64,000 nt of DNA from Alistipes sp. (GTDB lineage Bacteria > Bacteroidota > Bacteroidia > Bacteroidales > Rikenellaceae), in NCBI GenBank assembly GCA_017408825.1, contig JAFQTX010000001.1, positions 1 through 64,000 on the forward strand. Reading direction: 5' to 3'. How positions within the stretch are numbered: position 1 is the stretch's first letter; each line of letters opens with the position of its first letter. The translations under genes and the position numbers were made by a program. Shown one piece after another: positions 6,166 through 64,000 of this stretch. Under the pieces are notes generated by a model. That model was given only the letters and a program-made list of their open reading frames with translations. It was not told the DNA's origin and made no database searches.

Positions 6166-9100
6166 ATGACAAACAAACTATTCAAGTCATTCTTTGCAGT
6201 TGCATTGCTCGTGGGTTCTGCCCTTGGCTTTGTGGCTTGCGAAAATGAGGGTGATGGTGTTGTTGCCGATCCTAAGGTTGAGGTGTCGGCTACATCGCTT
6301 AACTTCACCAACGAGGAGGGTAATCAGACCCTCAATGTGACTGCCAACGCTGAGTGGAAGGCAGAGACCGATGCTGATTGGGTGACTATCACTCCAGCTG
6401 CAGGTAAGGGTGATGCTACAATCACTGTTGCTGTATCGGCCAACGACACAGGTGCTGTGCGTACAACCGTTGTTAAGGTTATCGCTTTGCACAAGGAGTA
6501 TGGCGCTTGGGATACTAAGAAGGTTACCGTATCGCAGTCGGCTACCGAGACTCCTCCCGTAGAGGAGGAGTTGTTGTATAGCGATGACTTCGATGGCGAG
6601 GAGGCTACTAAGACCTATGGCTCAGGCTCATCATGGCCTTACATCGACCAGTTCCCTCAGTTTGCTAACCAGGAGGGTCCTGCTGCCGAGAACGTAACTT
6701 ACTCAGGTAAGGGTGTTTCGGTACGTGCTAACTCTACATCTGACAGCCAGTACTCAGACTACGCTGGTTCAGGCTCTAACAACATCTTCTTTGGCTCATC
6801 GGCTTACTTCCAGGTGAACAACATCACTTTGGCAGCTGGTCAGACTAACCTTAAGCTCACTTTCGGCTCGGAGAAGTATACTCAGGATGGCGACAGCACA
6901 TTCAAGCCAGAGGAGTTCCGCATCTACCTATCTAAGGATGGTAACGCTTGGGCTGAGATTAAGGAATATACATTCGCTGGTACTGAGGGTGGCCGTTGGA
7001 ATGTTGCTACTGCTGAGTTTACGTTGAACGCTGTTCCTGAGACTCTCTACCTCAAGTTTGCTGCATCGGTAGCAAGCGTATATCGTCTTGACGACGTTAA
7101 GCTCTACACTGGTAACGGTGGTCAGGCTATCGACCTTGACAACATCGAGGCTCCACAGCCTGTTGAGGCTAAGAAGGTGACTGTTGCTGAGTTCTTGGCT
7201 GCTGCCGAGGATTCTACTATCTACGAGCTTACAGGTGAGATTACCAATGTTACAAACACTACATACGGTAACTTCTACCTCAACGATGGCACTGGCGAGG
7301 TGCTTATCTATGGTCTTTGCTCACCATCGGGCGAGCAGAAGTACTGGGCTGAGTCGGGTGCTAAGGTAGGCGACACTATCACCGTACAGACTGTTCGTAC
7401 ATCATACAATGGTACTCCTCAGGGTAAGGATGCTATCTTCGTATCGTTGGTTCCTGGCGAGGGTGGTAGCCAGACTCCAGAGCCTGCTGAGGGCCCATAC
7501 GCTTCGGATGTTGCGTTCGTATGCTCTACTGATGACTCGACAAACGCAGTCTATAGCCTTGGTGCAACAACTATTGACGGCAGCGCAGTAACAGGCTTCA
7601 AGCTCGGTAAGGGTAAGCAGACAGGTTTGTTCAAGTCAGCTGCTGTAGGTGTATCTGGCGACAAGTATCTCAACCTCTACGCTGTGGCATGGAAGGGTGG
7701 CGATGCTAAGCTCTACTTCCGAGTTGACGGTGGTGCTACTCAGACATTGGAGATTGCTCCTAACGATGGCGCAACAAACAATGCTCCTTATACTGCATTG
7801 GCATTTGCCGAGACAGACCACTACTCAGTAAAGCTTAGCGGCTTGACTGCAACTTCTACAATTGAGTTCTCGACAGATCCTAACTTCGAGCTTACTTCGG
7901 CTGATGCTACTATCTCTTATGCACGTGCTATCGTTTGTGGTGTTAAGCTTACTGACGAGCCTATCGGTAACGAGGGTGGTAACGATACTCCAGCCCCAGA
8001 GCCAGGTGTAGTTAAGGTGACTGTTGCCGATTTCTTGGCAGCTGCTGAGGATTCAACTATCTACGAGCTTACTGGTGTGATTACTCGTATGTATCGTGAG
8101 AACAACGAGAACGACACTCTCTACGGTAACTTCTATCTTGAGGATGCTACCGGCGAGGTACTTATCTATGGTCTTTGCTCACCATCGGGCGAACAGCAGT
8201 ATTGGGCTGAGTCTGGTGCTAAGGTGGGCGACACTATCACCGTTCAGACTGTTCGTACATCATATAACGGCACACCTCAGGGTAAGAATGCTATCTTCGT
8301 ATCACTCGTTCCTGGCGAGGGTGGTAGCCAGACTCCAGATCCAACCCCAGGCGATGCAATGACTATTGCTGATGTCTTGGCTAAGGGCAGCGGTGCTACT
8401 ATCGGTGGCGTTATTGAGGGCGTTGTAATCTCTAATATGGATCTCAACAACCTTACCTCAAAGAAGGGTCTCTATGTTCAGGATGAGACAGGTGCTTTGC
8501 AGTTCTACCTTGCAGCTAACCACGAGTTTGCTTTTGGCACTAAGATTAAGATCGACCTTACAACTGCTACTCTCGGCTCGTACAATGGTGCTGTTCAGGT
8601 TAGCGGCGTAGGTTTGGATAAGATTACTGTTGTTTCTACTGATAACGCAGTAGAGGCTAAGACCGTATCTATGGCAGACTTCCTCGCTAACAAGTATGAG
8701 GGCCAGTATATCGCTCTTGAGGGTGTTCAGGTTGCTGCTTCAGACCTCTCTAAAACATGGGTTATGGATGGCGCACACACCTCTATCGCTATGGAGGACG
8801 CTGCGGGCAATAGCTTCGTAGTATTCTCTTCAAAGTATGCTTCATATGGTGCTGAGACTGTTGCTCAGGGTGCTGGTACACTTAAGGGTATCTCATCTAT
8901 CAATAATGGCACAATTCAGATTATCTTCGCTCAGACAACTGACTATGCTGGTCTAAGTGGCGAGCGTTTTGGTGATGCTGGTGGCCAGACTCCAACTCCA
9001 GAGCCAGAACCAACTCCTGGTGATGGTGAGGTAGTTGTTTTGACTATGGCTGACTATTTCTCAGCTGCCGAGGAAATTGTTAATACAGATGGCACAGCTA

Positions 9101-9399
9101 AGAGCTACACATTTGGTGATTATACATTCTCATTCTCAAAGGTTAATAGTAATGCTTCTAACTACAATGCTTCTGATGCGGGTATTCGTTTCTATCAGGG
9201 TGATGTGATGACTATTGACGCTGGTAACAAGACTATGACTAAGATCGAGTTTGAGATCTATGGTGGTAAGATAGGTCCTTTTACCTCAAACGTGGGTAGT
9301 GTAGATGGCACTACTTGGACTGGATCAGCATCTTCAGTTGAGCTTACGGCATCTGCACAGGTGCGCTTTAAGAGTGTAACTATCACTCTTGCTGAGTAA
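6166..9399 (+). CDS. Large surface lipoprotein with BACON and repeated OB-like domains
   Basis: The 1077-aa protein has a lipoprotein signal (lipidated C26 after LGFVA) and a chain of beta-rich domains: BACON (about 36-120; EWKAETDADWVTITPAAG), a jelly-roll-like segment (about 134-318), an OB-like repeat (334-438), another beta segment (445-605), a second copy of the OB-like repeat (615-724), a DUF5689-like segment (730-945) and a final beta sandwich (965-1077), joined by acidic Pro-rich linkers. The two OB repeats are nearly identical over KVTV..FLAAAEDSTIYELTG and SGAKVGDTITVQTVRTSY. Codon use is strongly biased to a few codons, suggesting high expression. It precedes the nuclease/TonB operon, so a ligand-binding role for extracellular nucleic acid is plausible but inferred. 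Confidence 0.85.
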   Translation: MTNKLFKSFFAVALLVGSALGFVACENEGDGVVADPKVEVSATSLNFTNEEGNQTLNVTANAEWKAETDADWVTITPAAGKGDATITVAVSANDTGAVRTTVVKVIALHKEYGAWDTKKVTVSQSATETPPVEEELLYSDDFDGEEATKTYGSGSSWPYIDQFPQFANQEGPAAENVTYSGKGVSVRANSTSDSQYSDYAGSGSNNIFFGSSAYFQVNNITLAAGQTNLKLTFGSEKYTQDGDSTFKPEEFRIYLSKDGNAWAEIKEYTFAGTEGGRWNVATAEFTLNAVPETLYLKFAASVASVYRLDDVKLYTGNGGQAIDLDNIEAPQPVEAKKVTVAEFLAAAEDSTIYELTGEITNVTNTTYGNFYLNDGTGEVLIYGLCSPSGEQKYWAESGAKVGDTITVQTVRTSYNGTPQGKDAIFVSLVPGEGGSQTPEPAEGPYASDVAFVCSTDDSTNAVYSLGATTIDGSAVTGFKLGKGKQTGLFKSAAVGVSGDKYLNLYAVAWKGGDAKLYFRVDGGATQTLEIAPNDGATNNAPYTALAFAETDHYSVKLSGLTATSTIEFSTDPNFELTSADATISYARAIVCGVKLTDEPIGNEGGNDTPAPEPGVVKVTVADFLAAAEDSTIYELTGVITRMYRENNENDTLYGNFYLEDATGEVLIYGLCSPSGEQQYWAESGAKVGDTITVQTVRTSYNGTPQGKNAIFVSLVPGEGGSQTPDPTPGDAMTIADVLAKGSGATIGGVIEGVVISNMDLNNLTSKKGLYVQDETGALQFYLAANHEFAFGTKIKIDLTTATLGSYNGAVQVSGVGLDKITVVSTDNAVEAKTVSMADFLANKYEGQYIALEGVQVAASDLSKTWVMDGAHTSIAMEDAAGNSFVVFSSKYASYGAETVAQGAGTLKGISSINNGTIQIIFAQTTDYAGLSGERFGDAGGQTPTPEPEPTPGDGEVVVLTMADYFSAAEEIVNTDGTAKSYTFGDYTFSFSKVNSNASNYNASDAGIRFYQGDVMTIDAGNKTMTKIEFEIYGGKIGPFTSNVGSVDGTTWTGSASSVELTASAQVRFKSVTITLAE

Positions 9400-9410
9400 A
9401 ACTAAATATC

Positions 9411-9458
9411 TCGTCGCCAAAGAGCTTGGGTGGGGTAGTCCCACCCAAGTGGGCGAGG
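9411..9458 (+). promoter_or_regulatory. Strong intercistronic hairpin
   Basis: A 10-bp perfect stem CTTGGGTGGG/CCCACCCAAG (9425-9434 with 9440-9449), extended by CTCG.CGCC/GGGCGAG, lies between the BACON lipoprotein and the nuclease gene. There is no T-run directly after it, so it may protect the upstream mRNA or attenuate downstream expression rather than terminate fully. Confidence 0.5.
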
Positions 9459-58829: not shown

Positions 58830-58903
58830 GGTTCCGTAGCTCAGTTGGATAGAGCAACAGCCTTCTAAGCTGTGGGTCGTGGGTTCGAACCCCGCCGGAA
58901 TCA
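58830..58903 (+). tRNA. tRNA-Arg (UCU anticodon), island attachment gene
   Basis: The 74-nt cloverleaf has acceptor stem GGTTCCG/CGGAATC (one G-U pair), anticodon loop CTTCTAA (anticodon TCT, Arg) and T-arm GGGTTCGAACCC. The last 13 nt plus downstream sequence form the left arm of a 203-bp inverted repeat. A composition shift follows, so it is the likely attachment site of an integrative element. Confidence 0.95.
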
Positions 58904-59093
58904 CTTTTAGACCTTATAACACACCCTGTTGTAAGGTTTTTTTTGTGTCCATACCTCCTTTATTACCCACAAAAATAATAGGTGTAACACCCTTAAAATA
59001 TCAATTATTAGGATGTTACATCTATTACAAACCTTACAACCTAACACTCTTCAATCACATCAATTACATTGGTGTGCTGGGTGTGTTGTGGAG
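58891..59093. repeat. Left 203-bp inverted repeat arm
   Basis: Starts in the tRNA-Arg 3' end (CCCGCCGGAATCAC) and ends GTGTGTTGTGGAG. Only three differences from the right arm: an 8-T versus 7-T run, a 5-A versus 6-A run, and one C/T change. The distal end is the reverse complement of the last codons of the integrase gene. Confidence 0.95.
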
Positions 59094-59179: not shown

Positions 59180-60334
59180 ATGTGGAATATTACATTTTGT
59201 TGTAGAGGTGCAAAAGTGGGTAAAGATGGACTTGCTCCTGTGGAGATGGTCATCACTGTTGATGGGGTTAGAAGTTATAGAAGGCTATCTATCAAAGTTA
59301 ATCCATTAGAATACAAGAAGTTGATATCCAGTAAGAGGGATAACTATGTCAAGAGATATTGTGAGAATGAGAGGTTAAAGGCATATGACACCATATCCAA
59401 GTTGGAGATGATGGGATATCCTATCACCATAGAAGTAGTCAAAGATGCCCTTATAAATGGTGTAAACACAAATTATTCATTGAAGGATCTACAACAGGAC
59501 TTCTTAACCATTAGTAAGCAAAGAGTAGGCACTGACTTATCCATACCTTGCTACCAAAGATATGTGAGAATTACAAATAAGGTGATTGCGATATTAGACA
59601 ATAAAGAGTGTAGGACAATTACTAATAAAGATATTAGGTTATTGGCAGCAGAACTTAGAGGGAGTCTACAAGCATCAAGTTTTGCTAACCAGTGGTCAAT
59701 AGTAAAACTATTCATCAATTATGGGATAAACAACAATAGGATATTGGGACATAACCTCTTTGATTCAATTAAGGTTGAGAGAAAACCTAAAAAAGTTGAG
59801 TATCTTACCAGTGATGAGTTGAATAAGATTCGTAGTACCCCATATTCATCCCCATCATTACAAAGAGTTGCTGACATCGCCATTTTGCAGGCAAATTTAG
59901 GATTGGCATACTGTGATTTGGTGGATATTAAAAGAGATGACATACAAGAGAGAGGTGGAGTGAAGTTTATTCAAAAGCAAAGACAAAAGACAGGAGTTGA
60001 GTATATAACAGTAGTCAATGATGAGTCGTTGGAGATATTGGAGAGGTATAATTTTAGTATCATCATATCTAATCAAGCATATAATAGATTCCTAAAAATT
60101 GTCGCCCTGCAAGCAGGGGTGAATAAGAACCTTCATAGTCATCTTTTGAGACATACTTTTGCACATCACCAACTAAATGAGAAGCACTTAAACATTGCTA
60201 CTGTGAGCAAGATGTTGGGGCATACTAACCTAAAACAGACAATGCACTACTGCGAGAAACACACCACAACAGTCTTAGAGGAGTATTTGAAAGCAAATGA
60301 AAGTCTCCACAACACACCCAGCACACCAATGTAA
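59180..60334 (+). CDS. Tyrosine recombinase (site-specific integrase)
   Basis: A 384-aa integrase with an N-terminal arm-type DNA-binding region (1-90), a SAM-like core-binding domain (about 98-200) and a catalytic domain (about 205-372). Catalytic residues: H321 and R324 (HLLRHT), H348 (LGHTN) and nucleophile Y357 (MHYCE); K270 may be the beta-strand lysine. The first Arg is replaced by Ala (A243 in LGLAYCDL), as in some Bacteroides element integrases such as those related to IntDOT. AT-rich compared with the core. The last nine codons and stop lie in the right arm of the 203-bp inverted repeat. Confidence 0.95.
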   Translation: MWNITFCCRGAKVGKDGLAPVEMVITVDGVRSYRRLSIKVNPLEYKKLISSKRDNYVKRYCENERLKAYDTISKLEMMGYPITIEVVKDALINGVNTNYSLKDLQQDFLTISKQRVGTDLSIPCYQRYVRITNKVIAILDNKECRTITNKDIRLLAAELRGSLQASSFANQWSIVKLFINYGINNNRILGHNLFDSIKVERKPKKVEYLTSDELNKIRSTPYSSPSLQRVADIAILQANLGLAYCDLVDIKRDDIQERGGVKFIQKQRQKTGVEYITVVNDESLEILERYNFSIIISNQAYNRFLKIVALQAGVNKNLHSHLLRHTFAHHQLNEKHLNIATVSKMLGHTNLKQTMHYCEKHTTTVLEEYLKANESLHNTPSTPM

Positions 60335-60507
60335 TTGATGTGATTGAAGAGTGTTAGATTGTAAGGTTTGTAATAGATGTAACATCCTAATAATTGATAT
60401 TTTAAGGGTGTTACACCTATTATTTTTTGTGGGTAATAAAGGAGGTATGGACACAAAAAAACCTTACAACAGGGTGTGTTATAAGGTCTAAAAGTGATTC
60501 CGGCGGG
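60305..60507. repeat. Right 203-bp inverted repeat arm
   Basis: Begins CTCCACAACACACCC inside the integrase 3' end and finishes GTGATTCCGGCGGG, the complement of the tRNA-Arg 3' end. Similarity to the left arm stops abruptly on both sides. Confidence 0.95.
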
Positions 60508-61202: not shown

Positions 61203-61249
61203 TGAAGTGACCCCAAAAGTTTGGACAAAAAACTTTTGGGGTCACTTCA
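61203..61249. terminator. Perfect 19-bp hairpin holding a stop codon
   Basis: Arms 61203-61221 and 61231-61249 are exact complements (TGAAGTGACCCCAAAAGTT) with a 9-nt loop. The stop codon of the minus-strand gene (TGA, 61247-61249) is part of the stem; in that direction a T-rich loop follows, so it can act as terminator. Similar CCCCAAAAGTTT palindromes flank Bacteroides mobile genes. Confidence 0.6.
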
Positions 61250-62020
61250 CTCCCTTCGCCATTGTTTGGGCACTGATGCGCCACTGCATTTCTGCGGCTC
61301 TGTATTGATGCTGTGGGCGGTATCTCTATACCAAGATTCACTATCTATATGTTTGCTCAGAACGTAAATAAGATACTTGATCACTGAAGCCTTTGCGTAT
61401 TCTGAATTGTAAATCTTTGAGAAGTTCCTCTCAACAACACATCTTTCAAACTCTTTAAATGAAATGCCCTTAAAAGCATCATCGCAGACATAGTCATATA
61501 CTTTGCGTAAGTAACACTGGTCGATTAAGCGACTTGATACACTTTGGCTTGGCTTGTTAATGGCGTAAATATCCACACCAAAAGTAAGCTCAATGCGTTT
61601 ACGCAAGATTGGCATATGTTTAATAAAACATTCAACATCAAACGTTCCAGGCATATTAAAGTCGTGGTCATCAACGAATCTCCTATAATACTGATACTCA
61701 CTCTCAGTGTCAAATTCGAGGTCAAGCTTCTCGGTTAATAGTTTAAGTAAATAGGTGTTGTCATATGACGAGTCCATATAATAAGCACTTATCATATCGG
61801 CAACTATTAAAGGTGAAGCGACACGGCTTAGTTCTACAATCGTGTAAAACTCGTCGTAGTTACACTCTTCTGGAAACGGAGTATAATCTAATAGTTCTCT
61901 ATCCTTCGCACGATTACGCTGCTCACATTCATCCTTGTAACATTTATCTATGATGCGTATTGCTTTGGATACAATTGCAATAATGTTTAGTTGTGCTATA
62001 AACTCTAAATTCTGTTTCAT
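61247..62020 (-). CDS. Unknown island protein
   Basis: A 257-aa, probably cytosolic, helical protein with many Cys and Tyr residues; no signal peptide or TM. I do not recognise the family. The last 20 or so residues (TEPQKCSGASVPKQWRRE) read into sequence that looks like a mobile-element edge and may not be native. It is AT-rich, like the rest of the island. Confidence 0.6.
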   Translation of the reverse strand: MKQNLEFIAQLNIIAIVSKAIRIIDKCYKDECEQRNRAKDRELLDYTPFPEECNYDEFYTIVELSRVASPLIVADMISAYYMDSSYDNTYLLKLLTEKLDLEFDTESEYQYYRRFVDDHDFNMPGTFDVECFIKHMPILRKRIELTFGVDIYAINKPSQSVSSRLIDQCYLRKVYDYVCDDAFKGISFKEFERCVVERNFSKIYNSEYAKASVIKYLIYVLSKHIDSESWYRDTAHSINTEPQKCSGASVPKQWRRE

Positions 62021-63167: not shown

Positions 63168-63175
63168 TACCTTTG
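63168..63175 (+). promoter_or_regulatory. -7 box upstream of the RT locus
   Basis: TACCTTTG matches TAnnTTTG exactly; the -33 element is not clear. The transcript would begin near 63182, about 345 nt before the first ORF. Confidence 0.55.
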
Positions 63176-63181
63176 TGGCGT

Positions 63182-63527
63182 ATTCGTTCTTTGATAGAGT
63201 GGAAGAAGGTTTAATAGACCAAGAAGTACTACGAAACTAAAGTGATTTTTTCACAACCTTATTGGTATTAACGGGGAGCCGCAAGTCGAATCGACAAGAC
63301 GACATATCCACGTAATAGATTTGTTACGCTATATAGTATCTCAATTATTTGGATAGGATGTGTTCTGTTTGTTATTTTTTGATATTGCATAAAACTCGTA
63401 TAATGCTTCAGCAATGTGGCATGGGAAAATAGAGAGCAAACGAAGGTCAATGCATATAGTACTTTTAGGTTGGTAATACTGATGGTGGCATGGCAATATT
63501 GCCGTAAAACCTTTAAAAGTATTAAAA
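63182..63527 (+). ncRNA. Candidate structured leader or retron-type ncRNA
   Basis: Gene-free stretch between a -7 box and the small ORF that precedes the reverse transcriptase. Hairpins: GTGATTTTTTCAC (63242-63254), GTCGAATCGAC (63285-63295), CGTAA/TTACG (63311-63328), GGCAATATTGCC (63492-63503) inside a longer stem AGTACTTTTAGGTT with AACCTTTAAAAGTATT. Position and length fit the template RNA of retron or DRT systems, but I could not establish the diagnostic a1/a2 pairing. Confidence 0.35.
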
Positions 63528-63749
63528 ATGGTTAAAGTAAAAAGACCAATTAAGCCTTCAAAAAGGGTACGTAAGGCACACCCTCATTGCTCTTCTTCGA
63601 TGGAAAGAGCTACCAAAAAGATTCGCGAAACGACAAGATTTGTTAGAAGCATAAGAAAGTTGCTGTGCGAATTATGGAAGTTGGTTAAGTATGTAATAGT
63701 AATAATTCTTACTATTTTATTTTTACTTGGCTATCCATCGGCTCTCTAA
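63528..63749 (+). CDS. Small basic single-TM protein beside the reverse transcriptase
   Basis: A 73-aa protein with a strongly basic N-terminal half (VKVKRPIKPSKRVRKAHPH; RATKKIRETTRFVRSIRK) and one C-terminal TM helix (LVKYVIVIILTILFLLGY). No known family recognised. It ends 16 bp before the RT start codon, so is co-transcribed with it. A membrane-acting effector or an RT accessory protein are both possible. Confidence 0.6.
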   Translation: MVKVKRPIKPSKRVRKAHPHCSSSMERATKKIRETTRFVRSIRKLLCELWKLVKYVIVIILTILFLLGYPSAL

Positions 63750-63765
63750 TTTCTTCTCCTAAGTT

Positions 63766-64000
63766 ATGATTCGTACATTAAAACATCTAACATATACTTT
63801 AAGAACCGGGTTGGCAACAATTAATGATATTCTTGCCAACATTGATTCGTACTATATATCGTGGTCAAAAGTTAAGACCGATAAAGATACTGGTCTCCCA
63901 TTAACAGATGCTGATGGCAATCATCGAACTCGTCAACTTAATTCCACAAAAATTGAGCTTAAAAGGATTCAGAAAAGAATTCTTGCGCTATTGATGTCCC
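63766..64000 (+). CDS. Reverse transcriptase, N-terminal fragment (cut by window end)
   Basis: The 78 codons present begin ATG 63766 (IRTLKHLTYTLRTGLATIND) and show the N-terminal signature of retron-like or defence-type bacterial RTs: NIDSYYISW, a linker region with GLPLTDADGNHRTRQLN, and ELKRIQKRILALL, equivalent to the conserved (P..LK.IQ..I...L) block before RT motif 1. The catalytic YxDD would lie beyond the window. AT-rich as the island. The group (retron, DRT or other) cannot be set from this part. Confidence 0.7.
   Translation, partial: MIRTLKHLTYTLRTGLATINDILANIDSYYISWSKVKTDKDTGLPLTDADGNHRTRQLNSTKIELKRIQKRILALLMS

Follow-up and report, generated by a model that had tools for sequence, protein, structure and literature searches.

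The window, i.e. the whole stretch of 64,000 nucleotides analysed here (G000:C8:1-64000, from a contig of 84,405 bases), ends within a retron operon in which a promoter, a structured leader of about 340 nt, a small-protein gene and a reverse transcriptase (RT) gene follow one another; the RT gene, cut by the window end, can be read on in the contig. The features of the operon, all on the plus strand, are:

63168 to 63175, plus strand: -7 promoter box TACCTTTG (TAnnTTTG), located in the sequence and shared with the leaders of relatives
63187 to 63194, plus strand: TTCTTTGA box at the start of the leader, exact in 29 of 35 leaders
63217 to 63231, plus strand: a1 arm of the retron ncRNA, pairing with a2 in the predicted fold and in the duplex calculation
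63242 to 63254, plus strand: msr-like hairpin GUGAUUUUUUCAC, kept in six clade leaders with one U-A/C-G change
63416 to 63424, plus strand: direct repeat, copy 1, GTGGCATGG, from the within-locus repeat comparison
63457 to 63473, plus strand: a2 arm of the ncRNA, pairing with a1 (fold and duplex)
63485 to 63493, plus strand: direct repeat, copy 2, GTGGCATGG, 43 nt upstream of the small gene
63492 to 63503, plus strand: hairpin GGCAATATTGCC upstream of the small gene, predicted in the clade alignment
63528 to 63749, plus strand: 73-aa cationic small protein, likely the effector (ORF list, tblastn, charge, clade alignment)
63766 to 64000, plus strand: retron RT, first 78 codons; the whole gene (277 aa) ends at contig position 64599

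Much of this layout had been anticipated in the original prediction, and it was found in place: the -7 box is TACCTTTG; the approximately 345 gene-free bases with hairpins (63182-63527) contain no plus-strand ORF of at least 40 aa, two antisense ORFs of 60 and 51 aa being listed there, and their fold is better than that of shuffled sequences (z -2.74); the basic protein with a single hydrophobic stretch occupies 63528-63749; and the RT begins at 63766, 16 bp past the small ORF, with 599 bases of its gene lying beyond the window. Where a YxDD motif had been expected past position 64,000, the RT carries FVDD.

The RT is best recognised by the PADLOC profile RT_VI (9.6e-77), followed at a distance by RT_III-A (2.9e-48), and all of the 25 best PADLOC profiles are retron RTs; Pfam assigns RVT_1 (3.3e-16), and the nearest solved structures by sequence are the retron Ec86 RTs (5e-22). 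The alternative that the locus is not a retron, its RT being of the DRT type or a group II intron protein, draws on weak matches to Drt3a (8.6e-7, 28.6 bits with a cut-off of 200), Drt2 (0.003, 16.8 bits with a cut-off of 390) and the group II maturase model (5.5e-5, 22.4 bits with a cut-off of 300); retron profiles score far higher, and no Rfam family, introns included, matched at E up to 1 in the segment L002 2500-5000, which contains the leader, so that this alternative is scarcely credible. Thus, of the two labels originally offered, retron-like stood and DRT-like did not. The locus therefore has a retron-clade RT with its catalytic xxDD, and we regard it as a genuine retron whose RT belongs to the type VI clade and whose operon is reduced. 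It is called type VI-like, rather than a canonical member, because of the three gene models that PADLOC has for type VI only RT_VI matches: the HTH profile has no hit within the 19 kb surrounding the locus, and the place of SP_VI is taken by a small ORF with a His-Cys-Ser motif.

The surroundings are rich in defence genes. Of the tRNA-anchored island that had been proposed, the tRNA-Arg gene (58830-58904) and an adjacent integrase gene (59180-60334) are real and lie about 4.3 kb upstream of the operon; the inactivated AbiEii gene reported for the island is less secure, its three pieces, scanned apart, having given one match, under the Pfam cut-off (32 residues, E 0.057). Two near-perfect inverted repeats of about 200 bp (58891-59093 and 60305-60507; 123 nt at 99%, 53 and 38 nt at 100%) lie on either side of the integrase gene, taking in the 3' end of the tRNA-Arg, and the integrase segment may be invertible. 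At 61203-61249 a perfect 20-bp inverted repeat with a 7-nt loop (TGAAGTGACCCCAAAAGTTT) lies at the end of a 257-aa ORF (61247-62020, minus strand), for which the PADLOC and Pfam scans returned no family match. The defence-island setting holds, and is stronger past the window end, where contig positions 64632-79000 (L002:4633-19001) form a dense island with AbiH, AbiEi/AbiEii, an AbiLi-like ATPase, a PDC-S02 nuclease and a TOTE-type primase-helicase. Beside the AbiLi-like ATPase, an RloB-like gene is split between two frames (L002:8747-9031 and 9025-9411; Pfam RloB 8.7e-4 and 5e-14, the pieces scanned apart); at L002 14780-18481 a 1233-aa ORF looks Cas9-like and the next ORF Cas1-like, both judged by eye only.

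Relatives were collected by searching RT_VI in 393 genomes of the order, 395 of the phylum, 123 and 149 of the family and 395 of the class (overlapping draws), and by searching the window RT in 59 family genomes, in a collection of 84,980 species and in plasmids, phages and viral contigs. In the species collection the search with the window RT found five loci, two of them close relatives; in the viral contigs neither the single RT nor the clade alignment found a relative. Selection relied on gene order and on how strongly the loci matched three query RTs in BLAST, so that they represent a sample rather than a census: 35 type VI-like loci were kept, of which three are near-copies (L056, L058, L062) left outside the tests on the remaining 32 distinct loci. 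Loci with weak BLAST matches or other upstream genes (L012-L017, L019-L032, L035-L037, L049-L054, L057) were set aside before counting, five of them serving as outgroup of the RT tree; L055, L064 and L065 duplicate kept loci, and L001 and L005 duplicate L002. Among the plasmids, pShVSI35_2 of Staphylococcus haemolyticus (L083) carries an RT 30% identical, preceded by an HTH gene; the roughly 650 bp without a listed gene upstream of this HTH may hide a leader RNA and a small ORF.

Two forms of the operon were found. In 22 of the 35 loci the order is leader, small ORF, HTH and RT, and PADLOC SP_VI and HTH_VI recognise the small protein and the HTH of this form (checked in L004, L007 and L059); in the other 13, the window's included, the leader is followed by the small ORF and the RT, without HTH. 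An HTH profile matches 22/22 loci of the former group (20 of which had been used to build the profile) and 0/13 of the latter, within 3.5-19 kb of DNA each. The window belongs to a fully supported HTH-less clade (100/99), whose RTs include those of Alistipes sp. UBA940 (58% identical), Parabacteroides bouchesdurhonensis (55%) and the Bacteroides uniformis plasmid pBUN2 (52%). In the RT tree the HTH state changes four times, a number forced by the well-supported branches alone (bootstrap range 4-4), and the HTH-less loci fall on four branches: the window clade, L009 with L063, L038, and L039 with L043. Losses of the HTH appear likelier than gains, as judged from the tree, because every locus on the deepest type VI branch carries the HTH, although an inner fork has weak support (86/57).

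The beginning of the operon is recognisable across both forms. Leaders, anchored on the TTCTTTGA box or a variant of it, are 265-352 nt long among relatives; the box is exact at the start of 29 of the 35, and TAnnTTTG lies 14-21 nt upstream of it in 27, the window's included. We take the box to be possibly a boxA-like antitermination signal. The same word occurs 117-142 nt upstream of 16S genes in two f106 genomes: it precedes 16S genes at five of the 12 loci scanned, all from f106, and at none of six from f124, the twelfth locus having only 138 nt of upstream sequence. HTH loci have a palindrome, TTAACTnnnAGTTAA, overlapping the promoter, with 12/12 letters in L004, L007, L018, L047 and L066. 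This pattern, picked after the sequences had been viewed, is present with at least 9 of 12 letters in 16/21 HTH loci against 2/11 HTH-less ones (L033 and L009; Fisher p 0.003, kinship ignored). In HTH loci it is placed at -34 to -44 relative to the TTCTTTGA box, with L040 (-68) as the exception. At the same threshold it is missing from five HTH loci (L042, L046, L048, L059, L060), and no HTH-less locus has a clean palindrome of this kind. The distribution suggests that the HTH is an autorepressor which would have disappeared along with its site.

The leader behaves as a retron ncRNA. That of the window folds at -84.4 kcal/mol (z -2.74; 1/100 shuffles as good) and contains, in order, the a1 arm, the hairpin GUGAUUUUUUCAC, whose first G may be the branch point, then a variable msd-like part, the a2 arm and, last, the hairpin GGCAAUAUUGCC; the a1/a2 helix is present in its own fold. 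Over the 32 loci, cognate a1/a2 pairing reaches -24.4 kcal/mol against -20.3 +/- 0.69 for permuted partners, none of 20,000 permutations being as good, and this result, in which the a1 and a2 regions were chosen after viewing the sequences and the p value ignores kinship, holds after regression on GC. The ncRNA proposed at the outset is thereby supported, the pairing of its ends being locus-specific. Individual loci vary: after double centring 25/32 lie on the right side and 7/32 on the wrong side, and in L033, L003, L010, L044, L059, L067, L068 and L069 the true partner ranks only 19th to 30th of 32. The claim rests on the permutation test because RNAalifold, applied to six clade leaders, misses a1/a2, returning 16 pairs in three short hairpins with a covariation term of -0.64.

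A second feature of the leader is a direct repeat, i.e. a word of 8-10 nt in two copies flanking a2, 59-73 nt apart in 26/32 loci, the second copy being 35-60 nt upstream of the small gene in 30/32. The word itself is specific to the locus, GTGGCATGG here and AGGACATG, GGCACGTG, GGACACGG, TGTAACAGG, GTAGCAGG or AGGCGGGC elsewhere, and the two copies agree within loci (mean score 8.95) better than with permuted partners (6.68 +/- 0.22; 0/20,000 as good) or in within-locus shuffles (6.42). Taken singly, 15/32 loci exceed 95% of their own shuffles, and for L010, L045, L046, L048 and L039 the top-scoring word is probably some other stretch than the real element. In many loci copy 1 forms the 3' side of a small hairpin, a pairing with modest support (12/20,000 permutations as good, 27/32 loci used). 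The repeat occurs in both HTH and HTH-less forms and is therefore not the HTH site. It may serve in pairing between msDNA and effector mRNA, as an RNA switch with a shared partner, or as a double protein site evolving with the RT. A specific version of the first idea, which we consider a long shot, is that msDNA extending through copy 1 would carry the complement of copy 2, some 40 nt before the start codon, and silence the effector mRNA by pairing, perhaps with help from the RT or RNase H; this would act in addition to the holding of the protein or would replace it, and the block would be relieved once the phage attacks the msDNA. If so, the DNA copy made by the retron would be an antisense antitoxin to a cationic membrane peptide.

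The 73-aa protein has a net charge of +15 and one hydrophobic stretch (maximum Kyte-Doolittle value 2.71 over 17 residues). It had been suggested that the ORF be sought beside related RTs, and tblastn indeed finds it at the same place beside those 58% and 55% identical (E 6e-13 and 2e-6); a small ORF lies just upstream of the RT or HTH in 35/35 loci kept, and its recurrence beside related RTs appears to be more than chance. One copy, in L006 (G025:C59), is frameshifted next to an RT and leader that look intact, which may reflect decay or an assembly error. PADLOC profiles, SP_VI included, gave no match to the window protein at E up to 1, and SP_VI none to the small proteins of three clade relatives at E up to 10; matches in Pfam (one, 0.047) and NCBIfam (one, 0.054) lie below every family cut-off, and no enzyme domain was found by the three profile sets. 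Small proteins of the window clade have in common a basic N-terminus, helices that are amphipathic or hydrophobic, and an invariant His-Cys-Ser; those of the HTH form have, by eye, NRCSLS-like motifs at about the same place. Profile comparison links the small proteins of L009, L063 and L038 to HTH-form ones (E 2e-5 in one comparison, probability 78%) and detects no homology between the window-clade protein and the SP_VI type (hhalign E 0.047, probability 1%). The charge differs between the two forms: 15, 11, 12, 15, 15, 11, 13, 13, 7 and 1 in ten HTH-less proteins, while the 21 HTH-linked proteins range from -6 to +5 (p 9e-5, kinship ignored, L006 left out), a strongly basic protein being found on three of the four HTH-less branches. 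The comparison does not support conservation of a transmembrane helix, maximum hydropathy giving p 0.16 between the groups. Constraint on the small protein is moderate (dN/dS 0.58, 0.52, 0.42 and 0.17 in four pairs).

The reading that we favour, with somewhat better than even confidence, is that of a type VI-clade retron without HTH, in which the small protein would be the effector held by RT and msDNA, the HTH being an autorepressor where present. The HTH would be dispensable and the small protein the effector because HTH-less loci keep the small ORF, mostly without the palindromic promoter site. From the order of the genes, a single transcript starting at the TAnnTTTG promoter would carry the ncRNA, the small gene and the RT gene; the RT would copy part of the leader into msDNA, primed, as in known retrons, beside the computed a1/a2 duplex. 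The small protein is seen as an effector acting on the membrane: its basic tail may bind msDNA or RNA, and its amphipathic or hydrophobic helix could enter the membrane. By analogy with other retrons, RT and msDNA would keep it inactive in the healthy cell, and phage damage to the RT-msDNA complex would free it, causing membrane injury and stopping the infected cell. Where relatives carry the HTH, it most likely acts through the promoter palindrome to repress the operon; here both gene and site are gone, so that the HTH would not be needed for the basic machine.

Two other explanations bear on the small protein. It may instead be a nucleic-acid-binding cofactor or antitoxin, packaging the msDNA or tying the RT complex to the membrane, with a host enzyme or the product of an unlinked gene doing the killing. 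The very basic N-terminus with its invariant His-Cys-Ser, the lack of an enzyme domain and the charge raised in HTH-less lineages, as if to replace a lost nucleic-acid contact, all suit such a role; the small protein is, however, the sole accessory gene left in HTH-less loci, and its hydrophobic or amphipathic half is not what one would expect of a simple nucleic-acid binder. We consider the cofactor rather unlikely. It is improbable, even more so, that the locus is a type VI retron in decay, having lost the HTH and its operator and carrying a small ORF that drifts to no use: the frameshift in L006, the moderate dN/dS and the absent SP_VI match would fit, but the catalytic DD is intact in the RTs of all eight clade rows (the reading frame of L061 gave 254 aa), the small ORF, the leader elements and their order are kept across RTs 47-59% identical to the window's, and HTH-less forms occur in four separate lineages.

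Returning to the favoured reading, that of an effector held by RT and msDNA, four HTH-less lineages all keep the small ORF, which makes the small protein the part to test; the window clade, as a minimal version with two genes and an RNA, is easy to clone, and the co-varying direct repeat, found in HTH and HTH-less forms alike, is a concrete RNA/msDNA feature to mutate. In the literature searched, of which parts were available and to which the main 2020 classification and the 2024 census do not belong, no effector is assigned to type VI retrons, and the portions seen of PMC12948488, PMC13405049, PMC8934634, PMC8987985, PMC10264812, PMC12262390 and PMC12548924 contain nothing on type VI function, HTH-less forms or such repeats.

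Compared with known systems, the operon combines familiar and apparently new traits. The idea of a membrane-acting effector is shared with Ec48-type retrons, which have a two-helix membrane effector; their RT group differs and their effector is longer. Ec86, a type II-A retron, has the closest solved RT by sequence (5e-22). Its effector, according to the part of PMC12948488 available, is a ribosyltransferase-type enzyme in a filament, whereas the sole partner here is a 73-aa protein without an enzyme domain. The nearest relative is retron type VI as defined in PADLOC (RT_VI PDLC02952, HTH_VI PDLC02926, SP_VI PDLC02970), with which the window locus shares the RT clade, the small protein in first position, an upstream leader ncRNA and the same promoter and TTCTTTGA box; it differs in lacking the HTH and its operator and in a small protein much more basic and unmatched by SP_VI. 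The new arrangement originally proposed thus holds in part: the small partner is real and conserved, and the HTH is missing, but a small protein as type VI partner is already listed in PADLOC (SP_VI beside HTH_VI), so that the pairing itself is not new; what looks new here is the absent HTH together with a cationic small protein that SP_VI does not match.
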